This document shows positions 30,589 through 36,078 of a stretch of 64,000 nt of DNA, in pieces. The stretch covers positions 1 to 64,000 of the forward strand of contig JAKALP010000015.1 in NCBI GenBank assembly GCA_021824175.1. The letters run 5' to 3'. The notes beneath the pieces were generated by a model. That model made no database searches and had not been told where the DNA came from. It worked only from the letters and a program-made list of their open reading frames with translations. A program made the translations under genes and the position numbers. This stretch comes from Deltaproteobacteria bacterium (lineage in GTDB: Bacteria > Desulfobacterota > Desulfobacteria > Desulfobacterales > Desulfosarcinaceae). Position 1 is the stretch's first letter. Every line of letters starts with the position of its first letter.

Positions 30589-30969
30589 TCATCCCTGTGA
30601 GGGCGTTTCGTGCAGCAGTCTCTGGACGCAAGCTTTGAGATCGCTGATTTTAACGGGTTTTGCGAAGAAGTCATTGGCGTTGCGGCGGAAGGCTTCCACG
30701 GCCGCGTCCAGGCTGGCAAAGGCCGTGATCATGATCACCTTGATTTCTGGCGATTCATCCTTGATCGTTTTCAGCACCCCCATGCCATCCATGTCTTTCA
30801 TCTTCAAATCCGTGATCACCACGTGGAACTTCTCCTCTTTGAGCCTGGCCAGAGCGGGCTTCGGGTTCAGAAATGTTTCCACAATGTAGCCATCGTGCTC
30901 GAAAGCCGTTTTGATCATTTTGCCCACGATATTCTCGTCATCAATGACCATGATCCGGTAAGCAGCCAT
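30589..30969 (-). CDS. Single-domain response regulator
   Basis: The protein has 126 residues and is only a receiver domain: acidic pocket DDE (residues 10-12), phospho-acceptor Asp54 in VVITDLKM, the Thr of MITAF and Lys of AKPV. There is no output domain, so it may act by protein contact or as a phosphate shuttle. Its start lies two bases after the stop of the sensor kinase, and the kinase's GAGGAGAT end serves as its ribosome-binding site. The pair is therefore cotranscribed and coupled. Confidence 0.92.
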   Translation of the reverse strand: MAAYRIMVIDDENIVGKMIKTAFEHDGYIVETFLNPKPALARLKEEKFHVVITDLKMKDMDGMGVLKTIKDESPEIKVIMITAFASLDAAVEAFRRNANDFFAKPVKISDLKACVQRLLHETPSQG

Positions 30970-30970
30970 G

Positions 30971-32377
30971 TTAGATCTCCTCCTGTCGATGGGCGGGTAA
31001 TTGAATGGTAAAAGTCGTGCCTTTCCCGATCTGGCTTTTTACATCGATTTTACCGTTGTGGTTTTTGATGATTCCGTAGCTGATGGATAAGCCCAGCCCG
31101 GTGCCTTCGGTTCCTTTGGTGCTGAAAAAGGGATCGAAAATATGGGGCAGAAACTCCGCTGAAATGCCTTCGCCCGTATCTTCGACTTCAATGACCACAG
31201 AGTCGCCCTTTTCTTCGAGCCTCGTTCGGATGTAGACCGCGCCGCCGCAGGTGGACATGGCGTGGACGGCATTGGTCAGGAGGTTGACGAATACTTCTTC
31301 GATCTTGTGCCGGTCGATGAAGACGGGGGGAAGCGTCGGCTCGAGTTCCAATTTGCTTTCAATGCAGGTGACATCGAACATGTTTTGAACCAGCTTGAGC
31401 GACTCTTTGGCCAACTGATTCATATCGACCATTTGGAAATCGGTCTTTTTGGGCTTCGAGAAATCGAGCAGGTTTTGGACCACTCTTCTGATTCTTTCGG
31501 TTTGATCCAACACCGTCTGCATGTAATCAAGCCGGTCTTCTGGGCTCAGATCGTCGTAGAGCGCAAGATAGTTTTGCGCCACCATGGATATGTTATTCAG
31601 CGGATTGCCAAGCTCATGGGCCACTCCGGCCGTAAGCACGCCCATGGAGGCCAGCTTGCGGCTTTGAATCAACTGCTCCAGGCGCGAGCCGAGTTCTTCG
31701 GACATGGAGTTGATGGCCGTCATGACCGATCCCAGCTCATCGTTGGGTATTTTGCCTCCGATCTTGTTGAAGTTTCCTTTGGAAATGGCCGTGGCGACCT
31801 TTTCGATCCGGCGCAGGGACCTGAACATTTTCGAAAAAAAGAGATAACTGGTGGTGGCGGCAATGGCGAGCACGAAGCAAAAAAAGGAGAACAAGGCCCT
31901 CCGGGACGCCACGATGATCCGATTGACGGCCTCTCTTTCGAGTTGGATCAGGCTGGCCGATTGTTCGCGCAGTTGGCGCCCGGTTTCGCGCAGCGATTCC
32001 GCCATCTCTTTTGTAAATTCGCCAGATTTTTCCAGGGCCGCGACTTCCTGCTCGTACTTTTTAAGATTCGACTCGAGCTGGGCGAGCTTTTCCTTGCCGA
32101 TGGCCCGCTTGAGATTCTCCCTTTCGTCATCGATGGCCTGGGCGCTTTTGTTCAGGTCTTCGTGGATGAGCGGCAGATCGGATTTGTCCTTGTACAAGAA
32201 GTAATTCTTCTCTGAAAGCCGCATTTTAAGAAGATTGGCGTTGAGGCCTTCGGCAATTTCGACGAAGTTCAGCTTGTTGAGCAGTAAATCGAGTTTCTGA
32301 TAAGAAAAGGCATAGACGACCGCGATGAACATGATGGCGAGCACATTGCCGAGAATGATTTTATGCACGAGTTTCAT
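30971..32377 (-). CDS. Membrane sensor histidine kinase
   Basis: The protein has 468 residues. It has a membrane segment at about 7-24, a helical periplasmic sensor (25-160) with long coiled-coil character, a second membrane segment at about 161-181, a HAMP domain, HisKA with His254 in GVAHELGNPL, and an HATPase with DTGEGIS and GTGLGLSI. The helical four-bundle sensor is of the type with a conserved KNYFLYKD segment. It is the cognate kinase of the following single-domain regulator. A hairpin at 32427-32484 separates it from the upstream operon. Confidence 0.93.
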   Translation of the reverse strand: MKLVHKIILGNVLAIMFIAVVYAFSYQKLDLLLNKLNFVEIAEGLNANLLKMRLSEKNYFLYKDKSDLPLIHEDLNKSAQAIDDERENLKRAIGKEKLAQLESNLKKYEQEVAALEKSGEFTKEMAESLRETGRQLREQSASLIQLEREAVNRIIVASRRALFSFFCFVLAIAATTSYLFFSKMFRSLRRIEKVATAISKGNFNKIGGKIPNDELGSVMTAINSMSEELGSRLEQLIQSRKLASMGVLTAGVAHELGNPLNNISMVAQNYLALYDDLSPEDRLDYMQTVLDQTERIRRVVQNLLDFSKPKKTDFQMVDMNQLAKESLKLVQNMFDVTCIESKLELEPTLPPVFIDRHKIEEVFVNLLTNAVHAMSTCGGAVYIRTRLEEKGDSVVIEVEDTGEGISAEFLPHIFDPFFSTKGTEGTGLGLSISYGIIKNHNGKIDVKSQIGKGTTFTIQLPAHRQEEI

Positions 32378-32426: not shown

Positions 32427-32484
32427 TACAAGCTATCTCAAAATAATCTTTTGGCCCAAAATCTTTATTTTGAGATAGCTTGTA
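32427..32484 (-). terminator. 20-bp hairpin between operons
   Basis: Perfect 20-bp arms (TACAAGCTATCTCAAAATAA and complement) enclose an 18-nt spacer between the end of the DUF202-repeat gene and the kinase gene. A-rich arms make it a plausible terminator or attenuator. Confidence 0.75.
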
Positions 32485-32498
32485 GCATCTTCAATGCT

Positions 32499-33752
32499 TC
32501 ACGGCATTTCGGCTTCAGTAATCAACAGTTCTTTGGCCGGCCGCAGAATATAGTCTGGAATTTCGGCTTGTTCTTTTTGGGCCGGCAGATACCAGACGGC
32601 TCCGTCAATGATCAACCCAACGGCGCCTATGATGATAAACATATCGAAAACAGTCAAAAAGCTCAACCCGAAGTAGCGCGTCAGGCCAACGCCCAGCGAT
32701 AAGAAGGAGACTCCCGTGCGGATGAATGAAAGGCCGGTGCGGGCGCGGGCGTAGACCGTTCGGTAGCAGGCCGCGACGGTGCGCTGGGCCGACAGCAGAT
32801 TGCGTTCATGCGCCAGGTAGGAACGCTTTTTATTGTCCATGGATTGATCCATTACAATATCGTGCCGCAAGGGCAGCTCCGCCACCCGGGCCAGCATGGT
32901 CTTGCGGGCGGGACGGTTTTGCTCTTGGCGCTCAATGAACCGGTAGTTTTCCAAAAAGTATAAGGTCGCCGACGTAACTTCCACTATGGTCTGGTGCCTG
33001 GGCGGCCGCAGGACATGGCGCTTGATGCGCACGTAGTGGTACAGCCCCAGGAGAATCAGCCCCAGGCCCATGGCGATCAGGGACCAGTAGAAATATTGAT
33101 AATAGGCCGGATACGAACCGCGCAGATGCAGCAGGGACCGACCGATGGCAATCAATCCCATGCCGCCGCCCAGCAGTCCCAGATTGGTTCGGACCTTGGC
33201 GAAATCGGTGCGGTAGCACGCCAGTATGGTTCGCCAGCGCGCCATGGTGTTGCGCCACAGGGCCAGACTGGTTCTTTCATTGCCGATCAAGTGCCTGGGA
33301 TCGCTGTTGAGGAAGTCTTCTTTGAAAGCCTGAATATCTTCGGGCAGCGCCACGCGGAATTCGTATTTGGCGGCCTGGATGTACTCCTTCACCAGGCCGG
33401 GCAGGGCCGGATCTTTGGGGTTGGTGGCGGCAATGATCGCCATCTGCCCATCCTGGGCCACGGGAAACCAGTGGTAGCCACAGATGCCTTTGTCAGCCAG
33501 GGCCACTAATAATTCAAAGGGAATCGGCAGACGCTCGTCGTACTCCGCCCAGGCGCACTCATAGTGGGCGGATAACGCCGTCAACAGCTTGCGTCGCGTG
33601 ACATGGTATTCATGCCGCAGTACTTTTTCGACCTCCACGCCCCGGTTGGCGGCCCCGGCCGCGGCCTCGCGCAGTTTGGCTTCGGACAGAACACCCGTCT
33701 CGACCAGGTGCCGAAATCGGTCTAAGGTTTCATTGATGATTTCAGAGGTCAT
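32499..33752 (-). CDS. GspE/MshE-N-like domain with two DUF202-like membrane units
   Basis: The protein has 417 residues from ATG 33752, which overlaps the end of the upstream gene by 11 bases; 45 further upstream codons are open but overlap that gene and lack family sequence. Residues about 5-145 resemble the N-terminal domain of GspE/MshE-type ATPases (LETGVLSEAKL, then FPVAQDGQMAIIAATNPKD). Two units follow (about 157-245 and 312-390). Each has Arg-Thr steps every seven residues (ERTSLALWRNTMARWRT; ERNLLSAQRTVAACYRT) and then two membrane helices, as in DUF202/YidH. No ATPase domain is present. It is paralogous to the upstream neighbour. Function is unknown. Confidence 0.8.
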   Translation of the reverse strand: MTSEIINETLDRFRHLVETGVLSEAKLREAAAGAANRGVEVEKVLRHEYHVTRRKLLTALSAHYECAWAEYDERLPIPFELLVALADKGICGYHWFPVAQDGQMAIIAATNPKDPALPGLVKEYIQAAKYEFRVALPEDIQAFKEDFLNSDPRHLIGNERTSLALWRNTMARWRTILACYRTDFAKVRTNLGLLGGGMGLIAIGRSLLHLRGSYPAYYQYFYWSLIAMGLGLILLGLYHYVRIKRHVLRPPRHQTIVEVTSATLYFLENYRFIERQEQNRPARKTMLARVAELPLRHDIVMDQSMDNKKRSYLAHERNLLSAQRTVAACYRTVYARARTGLSFIRTGVSFLSLGVGLTRYFGLSFLTVFDMFIIIGAVGLIIDGAVWYLPAQKEQAEIPDYILRPAKELLITEAEMP

Positions 33753-35433
33753 AGCGACTGAAAACGACTTTCTTCCATGAAAGGGTCGGTTGGGCGTAAT
33801 CGGGGAACTGAATCTCCATATCCCAGGAACAGTAAGGGAATGACTCCTTGATTCTTTCGGCTGGAAGATGCCAGCGGAAGCCATCAATGATGAAAATCAA
33901 CCCCATCACCATCAGACAAGCATAGCAAGTCATCCAGGTTATGTTGGACAGGCCGAAGTAGACCAGCAGCCCCATCCCTACGGAGAAGATTTTTACCCCG
34001 GTGCGGATAAAGGCCATGCCGGTCCGGGAGCGCGCTAGAATGGTGCGCAGCCTGGCTTTGACATTGCGCCGTTCAGCGATGAGGGTGCGCTCCAGGGCCA
34101 GTCCGGTGGTGCCCCAGATGCCTGGCGAATGGGACTCCTTGATGAACAGGGCCGTGGGCAGTTCCCCGGCGCTGATGGGGTCGCGCCAGGCCGAGAACAT
34201 GAAATCCCAGATGGAGCGCCGCTGATGTTTTTTGCGGATCAGTTTCAGTCCTTCATTGCCGGCCCGCCGTCCGGGGACATACCAGTGCAGACCCTCCAGG
34301 GTCATGGTCGCGCCCAATAGAATAAAGGTCACATAGCTGATGACCCATCCGCTGGTGGGAAATTGCCGCACCAGGGCGATGCCCAAACCGATCAGGGCGA
34401 TTCCGGTGCGCATAAAAGCCAGACCAGTGCGGGCTTTGGCCATGGCCGAGCGGTAGGATGCCAGGGCCGTGCGCTCTTCGGCATGATCGGTGCGATCAAT
34501 GGCCAGAAACCGCCGCTTCATGATCGGCGAGAGCCGATTCCAGCCGATCCGCAGCGTGTCGGCCCCCTCAATAGGGTCATGGCGCGCGTAGAGCATTTTT
34601 CCATCCACAATACCATGCTCAAGAAAAGAGCTGCCGAAGGTGGATTCGGTCGGATTGTAGGAGGGCATTTGGCGGGCCACCGGCCGGATGGGCAGATACC
34701 AGCGCAACCCCTCCACGGTCAGGGCGAGGCCGACCACCAGAAGCAAGGCATCGGGGATCAGGGCAAAGCCGATCCCGAAAACCTGAAGCAGAACCAGGGC
34801 GATGGCGCTGAAGGAGAGTCCGGTCCGCATCATGGCCAGGCCGGTTCGGCCCTTGGCCAGGGAAGTTCTGTGAAAGGCCAGCAAGGTGCGCATTTTGGCC
34901 AGCGCATTGCGCACCCGCGCCAAAGCCGTGCGGCCAGCCGAGGCCGGATAGTGCGGATTGGCATCCTGATTGTGTTCGATGATGCGCGTGATATCGGGAG
35001 GCAGAGCGATGCATTTGTTGAGTTTTTCTACTTGGAGAGCTGTTTTGATCTCAGCGTCAAGCGCTGCGTCTTCGGGAAAGCCGACCACCACATCGGCCTG
35101 GCGATCCACGACCCGCAAGGGGAACCACAAGCGCTGTTTTAGCCGTTCCAGGTCCAGCCGGGACGCCAGCGTCTCTGTCAGGAGAAAACTTTCGCTGAAC
35201 TCGACGAAGGGCAGATGGTAGCGGTCGGACAGGCAGCGAAGAATCGCGTGTTTGGGCACCCCCATTTCAATCAAGAGCGCTTCCGGGAAGATATCGGCCG
35301 CCTCGGCTTCGTTGAGGATGGCGTGCAGTTTGCCTTCGACAATGACGCCGTTTGCGATCAAACCATCAAATCTTGAATGCGAGCCTGGGCCGAAAATCGG
35401 AGGGGATTGCCCCCAAGGATTAGGATGGTTCAT
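33742..35433 (-). CDS. GspE/MshE-N-like domain with three DUF202-like membrane units
   Basis: The protein has 563 residues. Residues about 20-150 resemble the GspE/MshE N-terminal domain (EMGVPKHAILRCLSDRYHLPF, WFPLRVVDRQADVVVGFPED). Three repeats follow at about 165-250, 308-388 and 445-525. Each starts with a helix in which Arg-Thr recurs every seventh residue (ALARVRNALAKMRT; RTALASYRSAMAKART; RRNVKARLRT), then RTGL/RTGI and two membrane helices ending in a WYLP or WHLP motif. MshE-type N domains can bind cyclic-di-GMP, so a second-messenger-responsive membrane protein is a reasonable inference. The gene lies in an operon with a methyltransferase upstream (12-bp gap) and a shorter paralogue downstream (overlap). 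Confidence 0.8.
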   Translation of the reverse strand: MNHPNPWGQSPPIFGPGSHSRFDGLIANGVIVEGKLHAILNEAEAADIFPEALLIEMGVPKHAILRCLSDRYHLPFVEFSESFLLTETLASRLDLERLKQRLWFPLRVVDRQADVVVGFPEDAALDAEIKTALQVEKLNKCIALPPDITRIIEHNQDANPHYPASAGRTALARVRNALAKMRTLLAFHRTSLAKGRTGLAMMRTGLSFSAIALVLLQVFGIGFALIPDALLLVVGLALTVEGLRWYLPIRPVARQMPSYNPTESTFGSSFLEHGIVDGKMLYARHDPIEGADTLRIGWNRLSPIMKRRFLAIDRTDHAEERTALASYRSAMAKARTGLAFMRTGIALIGLGIALVRQFPTSGWVISYVTFILLGATMTLEGLHWYVPGRRAGNEGLKLIRKKHQRRSIWDFMFSAWRDPISAGELPTALFIKESHSPGIWGTTGLALERTLIAERRNVKARLRTILARSRTGMAFIRTGVKIFSVGMGLLVYFGLSNITWMTCYACLMVMGLIFIIDGFRWHLPAERIKESFPYCSWDMEIQFPDYAQPTLSWKKVVFSRYDL

Positions 35434-35445
35434 GCACGGCCCGCC

Positions 35446-36078
35446 TTATTTCCTTCGGGCCGTCAAGAGAAAGAGCATGAACCGCCGCATCTCTCCATTG
35501 GCCCCAGGTTTGATGACTTCCGCAGCGTCGGTCAGCGCAACGTCCTCAAAACCAGCTTTCTCAAAAGCATTGCGCAACCCCTCGCGATCAAATCCGAAAT
35601 GAAACACCCCGGTATTGTCCTCATGGAACTTGCCTTCATCCGGGTCCAGGTCGGAGATGGCCACCTGACCGCCGGGGACAAGCACATTATAAAGTTGAAG
35701 CAAAAACGGTTCGATCCGCTGGATGTGATGCAGGGTCATATTGCTGATAATCAGGTCATATTTCCCCGGCAGGGCCTGCTCCTGCTCCAGATCCAGCCGT
35801 ACCGTCTTCACCCGGTCCAGCTTTAGTTGCGCGATTTTCCGGTTGAACTGATCCAGCATGCCCTGGGAGCTGTCCACACCGGTAATCGACCCTACCCGCG
35901 GCAGGATCTGAAGGCTTAACAAGCCAGTCCCGCAGCCGAAGTCCAGAACATCCATATCCGGCCGCAACGCCACCGTCTTCGCGATGGCCTGGCTCACATC
36001 TTTGACCATTTTGGACCTCACCGGATTTTCATCCCAGGAGGCTGCCTCTTTGTCGAAATTGCGTTTTTCTGATTGCAT
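35446..36078 (-). CDS. Class I SAM-dependent methyltransferase
   Basis: The protein has 210 residues. Motif I is VLDFGCGTGLLS (near 41-52); GVDSSQGML and DLIISNMTLHHI follow, the layout of ubiquinone/menaquinone-type or small-molecule methyltransferases. The substrate is unknown. It is the first gene of the operon with the two DUF202-repeat proteins. ATG 36078 is preceded by AAGGATCAGG. Confidence 0.9.
   Translation of the reverse strand: MQSEKRNFDKEAASWDENPVRSKMVKDVSQAIAKTVALRPDMDVLDFGCGTGLLSLQILPRVGSITGVDSSQGMLDQFNRKIAQLKLDRVKTVRLDLEQEQALPGKYDLIISNMTLHHIQRIEPFLLQLYNVLVPGGQVAISDLDPDEGKFHEDNTGVFHFGFDREGLRNAFEKAGFEDVALTDAAEVIKPGANGEMRRFMLFLLTARRK

Follow-up and report, generated by a model that had tools for sequence, protein, structure and literature searches.

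What might two adjacent membrane proteins do that join an N-terminal domain of GspE/MshE-type ATPases to several DUF202 units and are encoded next to a sensor kinase and a response regulator without an output domain? This question is raised by the genes termed B and C here, which lie in a stretch of 64,000 nucleotides (the window; positions 1 to 64,000 of contig JAKALP010000015.1, assembly GCA_021824175.1) from a Deltaproteobacteria bacterium affiliated with the Desulfosarcinaceae. In bacteria, the DUF202 domain of Pfam occurs widely and has no known function, and the only characterised members of the family form the polyphosphate channel of yeast. The analyses described below led us to suggest, tentatively and at somewhat less than an even chance, that B, with three DUF202 units, and C, with two, together constitute a five-unit, arginine-lined and receiver-controlled gate for anions or polyanions.

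Domain Architecture of B and C

Gene B (33,742–35,433; like all genes and domains described here for the window, on the minus strand) codes for a protein of 563 amino acids with an MshEN domain, three arginine-heptad DUF202 units, and a conserved C-terminal tail. Gene C (32,499–33,752) codes for 417 amino acids comprising an MshEN domain and two such units. The DUF202 profile PF02656 matched three stretches of B (46.7 bits, E = 4.5e-12) and two stretches of C (31.6 bits, E = 2.3e-7) at a curated cut-off of 23.4, and the MshEN profile PF05157 matched residues 73–157 of B with 28.7 bits (cut-off 23.1). For C, the MshEN score was slightly below this whole-protein cut-off (21.5 bits) and reached 24.4 bits in a whole-genome search. 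No NCBIfam family covered B, C had sub-cut-off MshEN matches only, and neither protein had a credible match in a PADLOC search for anti-phage defence systems. B and C were the sole DUF202 matches found in the 6.07-Mb genome containing the window. The closest named relative with B was an uncultured Desulfatitalea metagenome-assembled genome (MAG), with 67% identity. With the preferred ATG start, C shares its first 11 bp with the end of B; the longer open reading frame (ORF) starting with TTG, which had been given in the ORF list, is unlikely to represent the true start.

The MshEN domains extend over residues ~21–157 of B (34,963–35,373) and ~2–150 of C (33,303–33,749), as delimited by fold and motif columns. 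Their predicted structures had MshE (5htl) as top match, with VIA Z values of 13.0 (B) and 12.6 (C), and a sequence search against the PDB matched chains of PilF, PilB, and MshE, which supports the MshEN identity. At the place of the ATPase domain that follows MshEN, both proteins have membrane units, and no ATPase family in Pfam matched B or C. An original prediction, made from the sequence of the window without database searches, had described two adjacent GspE/MshE-N proteins with two or three DUF202-like units and without an ATPase; the profile matches and the MshE-like fold confirm this description.

The same prediction had pointed to some of these ATPases binding cyclic di-GMP (c-di-GMP) and proposed a binding assay of the N domain. 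The c-di-GMP receptor motif of MshEN consists of two RLGxx...LxxxLxxQ elements including Gly11, Gly40, Gln32, and Gln61 (PMC5013675). In B and C of the window, both 24-residue motifs have lost their RLG and Gln residues, the four named residues are replaced and their columns are unconserved across 43–45 homologues, and some homologues do without the motif subdomain. Because of these replacements, the lack of conservation, and the loss of the subdomain in part of the family, the MshEN heads of B and C are, as judged from their sequences, unlikely to act as c-di-GMP receptors.

Each DUF202 unit is headed by a helix with an arginine at every seventh residue, which is followed by two transmembrane (TM) helices, TM1 and TM2. 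In B, this helix contains R168, R175, R182, R189, R196, and R203 in unit 1 (34,690–34,932), seven arginines from R300 to R342 plus the exit arginine R356 in unit 2 (34,258–34,536), and R449, R456, R463, R470, and R477 in unit 3 (33,841–34,089). In C, the conserved arginines are R160, R167, R174, R181, and R188 in unit 1 (33,012–33,275), and R310, R317, R324, R331, and R338 are invariant in unit 2 (32,565–32,825), with R345 at 89%. These boundaries were derived from Pfam, alignments, and AlphaFold2, or from the latter two for unit 1 of C. The runs of arginines with a spacing of seven have lengths of 6, 7, and 5 in B and of 6 in both units of C; among 5000 shuffles of B a run of six was reached once and a run of seven never. 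The AlphaFold2 models (pLDDT 81.5 and pTM 0.77 for B, pLDDT 80.3 and pTM 0.61 for C) contain, per unit, a single unbroken helix of 52–55 residues formed by the arginine part and TM1, and then a second helix, in agreement with the predicted order of an arginine-patterned helix and two membrane helices.

Conservation of Unit Number and Arginine Heptads

Exact peptide seeds, searched across 84,980 species genomes, recovered 59 loci, which is a lower bound. Most belong to MAGs of the Desulfobacterota and Nitrospirota, and the remainder to Acidithiobacillus (cultured carriers include A. montserratensis and A. marinus) and two actinobacterial MAGs. The full protein was present in 4 of ~193 other genomes of the same order. 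Complete homologues of B (n = 43; alignment A4) and C (n = 45; alignment A5) were used to assess conservation. The number of units is constant, with three in all 43 B proteins and two in all 45 C proteins, and the fusion that had been noted in the window thus recurs with the same 3 + 2 count. Invariant heptad arginines number 6, 5, and 5 in units 1–3 of B and 4 and 5 in units 1 and 2 of C, 25 in total. At position 188 of C, Arg is found in 44 of 45 sequences, and R342 (B) and R345 (C) are kept at 88–89%. At the distal end of TM1, two heptads downstream, an exit-side arginine position is occupied by Arg or Lys in 91% (B unit 1) and 98% (B unit 2) of the sequences. Basic residues are less enriched in the other heptad registers of the units than in the arginine register, and the heptad arginines are more strongly conserved than the MshEN motif residues. 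In a tree of single units, which is weak due to its ~60 columns, B1, B3, C2, and the units of single-unit proteins each formed a clade, C1 grouped with one extra member, and B2 was not resolved. In the two actinobacterial MAGs (loci L096 and L097), the MshEN head is absent from B and reduced to its second half in C; both loci still keep the 3 + 2 arginine-heptad units, the kinase, the receiver, and the PPDK_N protein described below.

Association with a Two-Component System

Downstream of C, the window encodes a sensor histidine kinase of 468 amino acids (30,971–32,377), in which Pfam identified a short sensor with a weak HBM/four-helix-bundle match, HAMP, HisKA, and HATPase, and a receiver-only response regulator of 126 amino acids (30,589–30,969; Response_reg, E = 2.6e-28). 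Counted over those loci whose contig reaches far enough, C follows B in 54 of 54 loci, a homologous kinase follows C in 45 of 50, a receiver-only protein follows the kinase in 45 of 45, and a PPDK_N/PEP-utiliser protein (~850 amino acids) comes next in 24 of 39. The kinase and output-less receiver that had been noticed on the same strand are thus conserved partners of B and C. The kinase does not follow C in five loci: four of the Acidithiobacillus type and L100, where the receiver comes immediately after C. In the Acidithiobacillus-type loci (L088, L091, L104, L105), where B–C occurs without kinase and receiver, a secreted-looking DsrE-like protein (sub-cut-off match) and a 440-amino-acid protein without assignment are encoded nearby.

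The PPDK_N proteins retain the ATP-grasp motif (LAVRSSa..EDg..SFAGQF) and a conserved histidine in the swivelling domain and may therefore be active phosphotransferases; their C-terminal region of ~300 residues had no Pfam match. Genes upstream of B–C often code for TauE, Alph_Pro_TM, and UspA, and TauE and Alph_Pro_TM occur together in 17 loci. A conserved cluster with the order TauE – Alph_Pro_TM – PPDK_N/PEP-utiliser – receiver – kinase was also observed (L135, L056, L178, and others), and the genome containing the window has such a cluster away from B–C (L135).

Two further elements at the locus were considered. A methyltransferase gene (35,446–36,078) does precede B on the same strand, as had been predicted, and its membership in the system was rejected: it is found in this position in only 1 of 60 loci, that of the window, and not in a relative of the same genus. 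Between C and the kinase gene lies a dispersed inverted repeat of 54 bp with perfect 18-bp arms (CAAGCTATCTCAAAATAA...; 32,429–32,482). The arms occur in ~95 copies genome-wide, 36 or 124 bases apart (reversed-pattern control, 0), resembling dispersed elements of the REP/MITE type, and the hairpin in the window has z = -5.8. The repeat is regarded as lying outside the system and may affect the transcript; because its hairpin separates C from the kinase gene, the five genes need not share one transcript.

Receiver Fusions and Long Arginine–Threonine Heptad Arrays

A direct link between receivers and DUF202 was found in five loci (L046, L047, L175–L177), in which a DUF202 unit with 12 arginine heptads shares one chain with a receiver domain and a PPDK_N protein is encoded next. 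When 297 genomes were searched with a profile of the receiver fusions (A6), the best receiver-only matches included the free receivers of B–C loci (genomes G292, G244, G445, G194, and G096, and the window), and the receiver of the window was the best match in its own genome (E = 1.3e-26). In four other loci (L170, L171, L172, and L178), the slot upstream of the kinase–receiver pair is filled by a single-unit DUF202 protein with 22, 29, 38, and 30 perfect heptads, respectively. That B plus C fills the slot of a single-unit DUF202 protein would be expected if five units are needed, obtained either from five copies or as 3 + 2.

Array lengths among the DUF202 proteins range from 5 to 38 arginine heptads. 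In the arrays of these four single-unit proteins, the consensus is RTxLAxx, with frequencies of 1.00 for Arg at position a, 0.95 for Thr at b, 0.86 for Leu at d, and 0.87 for Ala at e. The protein with the longest array (L172:3269-4390, plus strand) has 38 perfect arginine–threonine heptads ahead of its membrane hairpin, and it and its counterparts in L178, L171, and L170 are more striking than the proteins of the window. DUF202 proteins with 11–17 arginine heptads and without an adjoining kinase occur in L048, L173, L174, L179, L180, and L181 (10166-10891), and in L181 such a protein lies beside a complete B–C–kinase–receiver operon. No description of arginine–threonine-heptad DUF202 proteins was found in the literature searched, and runs of as many as 38 perfect repeats would in themselves be an uncommon protein architecture.

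By arithmetic (1.5 angstroms per residue), 38 heptads correspond to a helix of ~40 nm. A period fixed at seven residues over 38 repeats implies, at the level of sequence, supercoiling of the helices. A supercoiled bundle is favoured over a helix lying on the membrane because the period is exactly seven, whereas 11 would be expected for the latter. This period and the relatives with 22–38 perfect heptads disfavour the amphipathic, membrane-lying or membrane-remodelling helix that had been envisaged originally.

Proposed Function and Alternative Explanations

A gate is proposed because DUF202 forms the membrane domain in yeast VTC and because R331/R338 of C align with K24/R31 of Vtc1. In the VTC pentamer (3:1:1), a polyphosphate channel is lined by five TM1 helices, and among its basic residues are K24/R31 in Vtc1 and K622/R629 in Vtc4, the residues of each pair being one heptad apart (PMC9911596). 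Like B and C, Vtc1 matches PF02656 (E = 1.9e-17), and R331/R338 occupy profile positions 1 and 8, where Vtc1 has K24/R31. A pentameric ring of B–C units would be compatible with the 3 + 2 count. Also in favour of the gate are the invariant heptad arginines with the exit-side arginine, the single long helix of each modelled unit, the B–C–kinase–receiver synteny, the DUF202–receiver fusions, and the single-unit long-heptad proteins found in the slot of B–C.

According to this proposal, B and C would be the membrane effector of the two-component system. The kinase would sense a signal via its small extracytoplasmic four-helix-type domain and phosphorylate the neighbouring stand-alone receiver, which in turn would act on the cytoplasmic heads or the arginine-heptad helices of both proteins. 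Three units from B and two from C would make a single five-unit ring, as in yeast VTC, with long helices extending TM1 into the cytoplasm and stacked arginine rings facing a shared lumen. This lumen would bind an anion or polyanion, for instance polyphosphate or a different phosphorylated compound, and would probably let it cross the inner membrane, and the MshEN heads would serve as docking or regulatory domains rather than as c-di-GMP sensors. We infer the five-fold assembly of B and C, the lumen-facing arginines, conduction, the substrate, and gating by the receiver. It is rather doubtful whether the proposal extends to a class of two-component-controlled DUF202 conduits. In these, the cytoplasmic part would be an alpha-helical barrel with an arginine ring every 10.5 angstroms, ranging from five rings (the covalent 3 + 2 pseudo-pentamer) to 38 (~40 nm, in the single-unit relatives). 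Such conduits would serve to store, measure or translocate a polyanion, polyphosphate or some other, and a PPDK-like ATP-to-histidine phosphotransferase would be a frequent partner.

Several observations weigh against the gate. The Acidithiobacillus loci contain B–C and neither kinase nor receiver, and the VTC unit has three membrane helices, whereas that of B and C has two in the AlphaFold2 models. No Pfam match to the TTM/CYTH polymerase or to SPX domains was obtained in B, C, or the scanned PPDK_N neighbours. A comparison of single units with the lone Vtc1 sequence by hhalign was not significant (probability <1%), so the link to VTC rests on the shared Pfam profile. A search of solved structures with the membrane part returned generic helical bundles and ABC-exporter helices only, VTC not being among the matches, a result that says little either way.

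A purely structural role is rather unlikely, and would have the arginine–threonine heptads form a rod or bundle that clusters the kinase, the receiver, and the PPDK-like protein at the membrane, with the DUF202 hairpins serving as anchors and no transport taking place. Arrays of 5 to 38 heptads within one gene context would suit such a spacer, and the strict RTxLAxx periodicity resembles a coiled coil. However, an arginine at each core a position is odd for a simple rod and yet absolutely conserved, an anchor has no need of a fixed 3 + 2 unit number, and the sole characterised relative of the DUF202 domain is a channel (PMC9911596). Also to be weighed is a position of B and C upstream of the kinase, where they would bind an anion or sense the membrane state via the DUF202 ring and adjust the activity of the kinase, while the receiver would have its target elsewhere, for example the PPDK_N/PEP-utiliser protein. 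The Pst/PhoU–PhoR phosphate system provides a precedent for a transporter that informs a kinase, and the gene order, with B–C ahead of the kinase and the PPDK_N protein frequently after the receiver, would agree with it. This arrangement is nonetheless unlikely: the DUF202–receiver fusions link the receiver directly to DUF202, and B–C occurs without a kinase in Acidithiobacillus and, together with a receiver, in L100.

The c-di-GMP-responsive membrane-remodelling system including the methyltransferase, which had been the original reading, is highly improbable. The heads do have a true MshEN fold, with a Z of 13 to c-di-GMP-bound MshE. Against this stand the loss of the RLG and Gln positions, the disappearance of the motif subdomain from part of the family, the occurrence of the methyltransferase at a single locus, and the heptad period. 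The conserved operon, with its 3 + 2 units, 25 arginines invariant across phyla, and phosphorelay coupling, offers a testable handle on the role of bacterial DUF202.

Comparison with Known Systems

The literature search found no paper combining DUF202 with MshEN, and none of the publications that mention DUF202 seems, judged from title and abstract, to deal with a system of this kind, which is consistent with the claim that the combination is undescribed. Single-unit bacterial DUF202 proteins of the YidH/YidG type share the hairpin unit and an ERT/RT motif with B and C, which differ by having several units, an MshEN head, and a linked kinase and receiver. In the literature, YidH was named solely as a candidate D-alanine exporter and was negative in the transport assay. 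The MshEN/GSPII domains of the GspE, PilB, and MshE ATPases (PF05157; 5htl, 2d28, 8pdk) have the same fold as the heads of B and C over ~140 residues (Z 11–13), but B and C lack the ATPase, have lost the c-di-GMP motif residues, and carry fused membrane units instead. The arginine–threonine-heptad proteins of L046, L047, L170–L172, and L175–L178 share the RTxLAxx heptads and the kinase–receiver or PPDK_N neighbours with B–C, but contain one unit per chain and 12–38 heptads, and some are fused to a receiver. Yeast VTC (Vtc1/3/4; PDB 7ytj, 8i6v, 9umg) has a DUF202 membrane unit as in B and C, basic TM1 residues one heptad apart, and five units per complex, as would B plus C if paired 1:1. It has two basic heptads, whereas B and C have five to seven arginine heptads, and only in B and C are the units fused in tandem as 3 + 2 and combined with an MshEN head and a two-component system. 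B–C is best filed as a new variant assembled from known domains.

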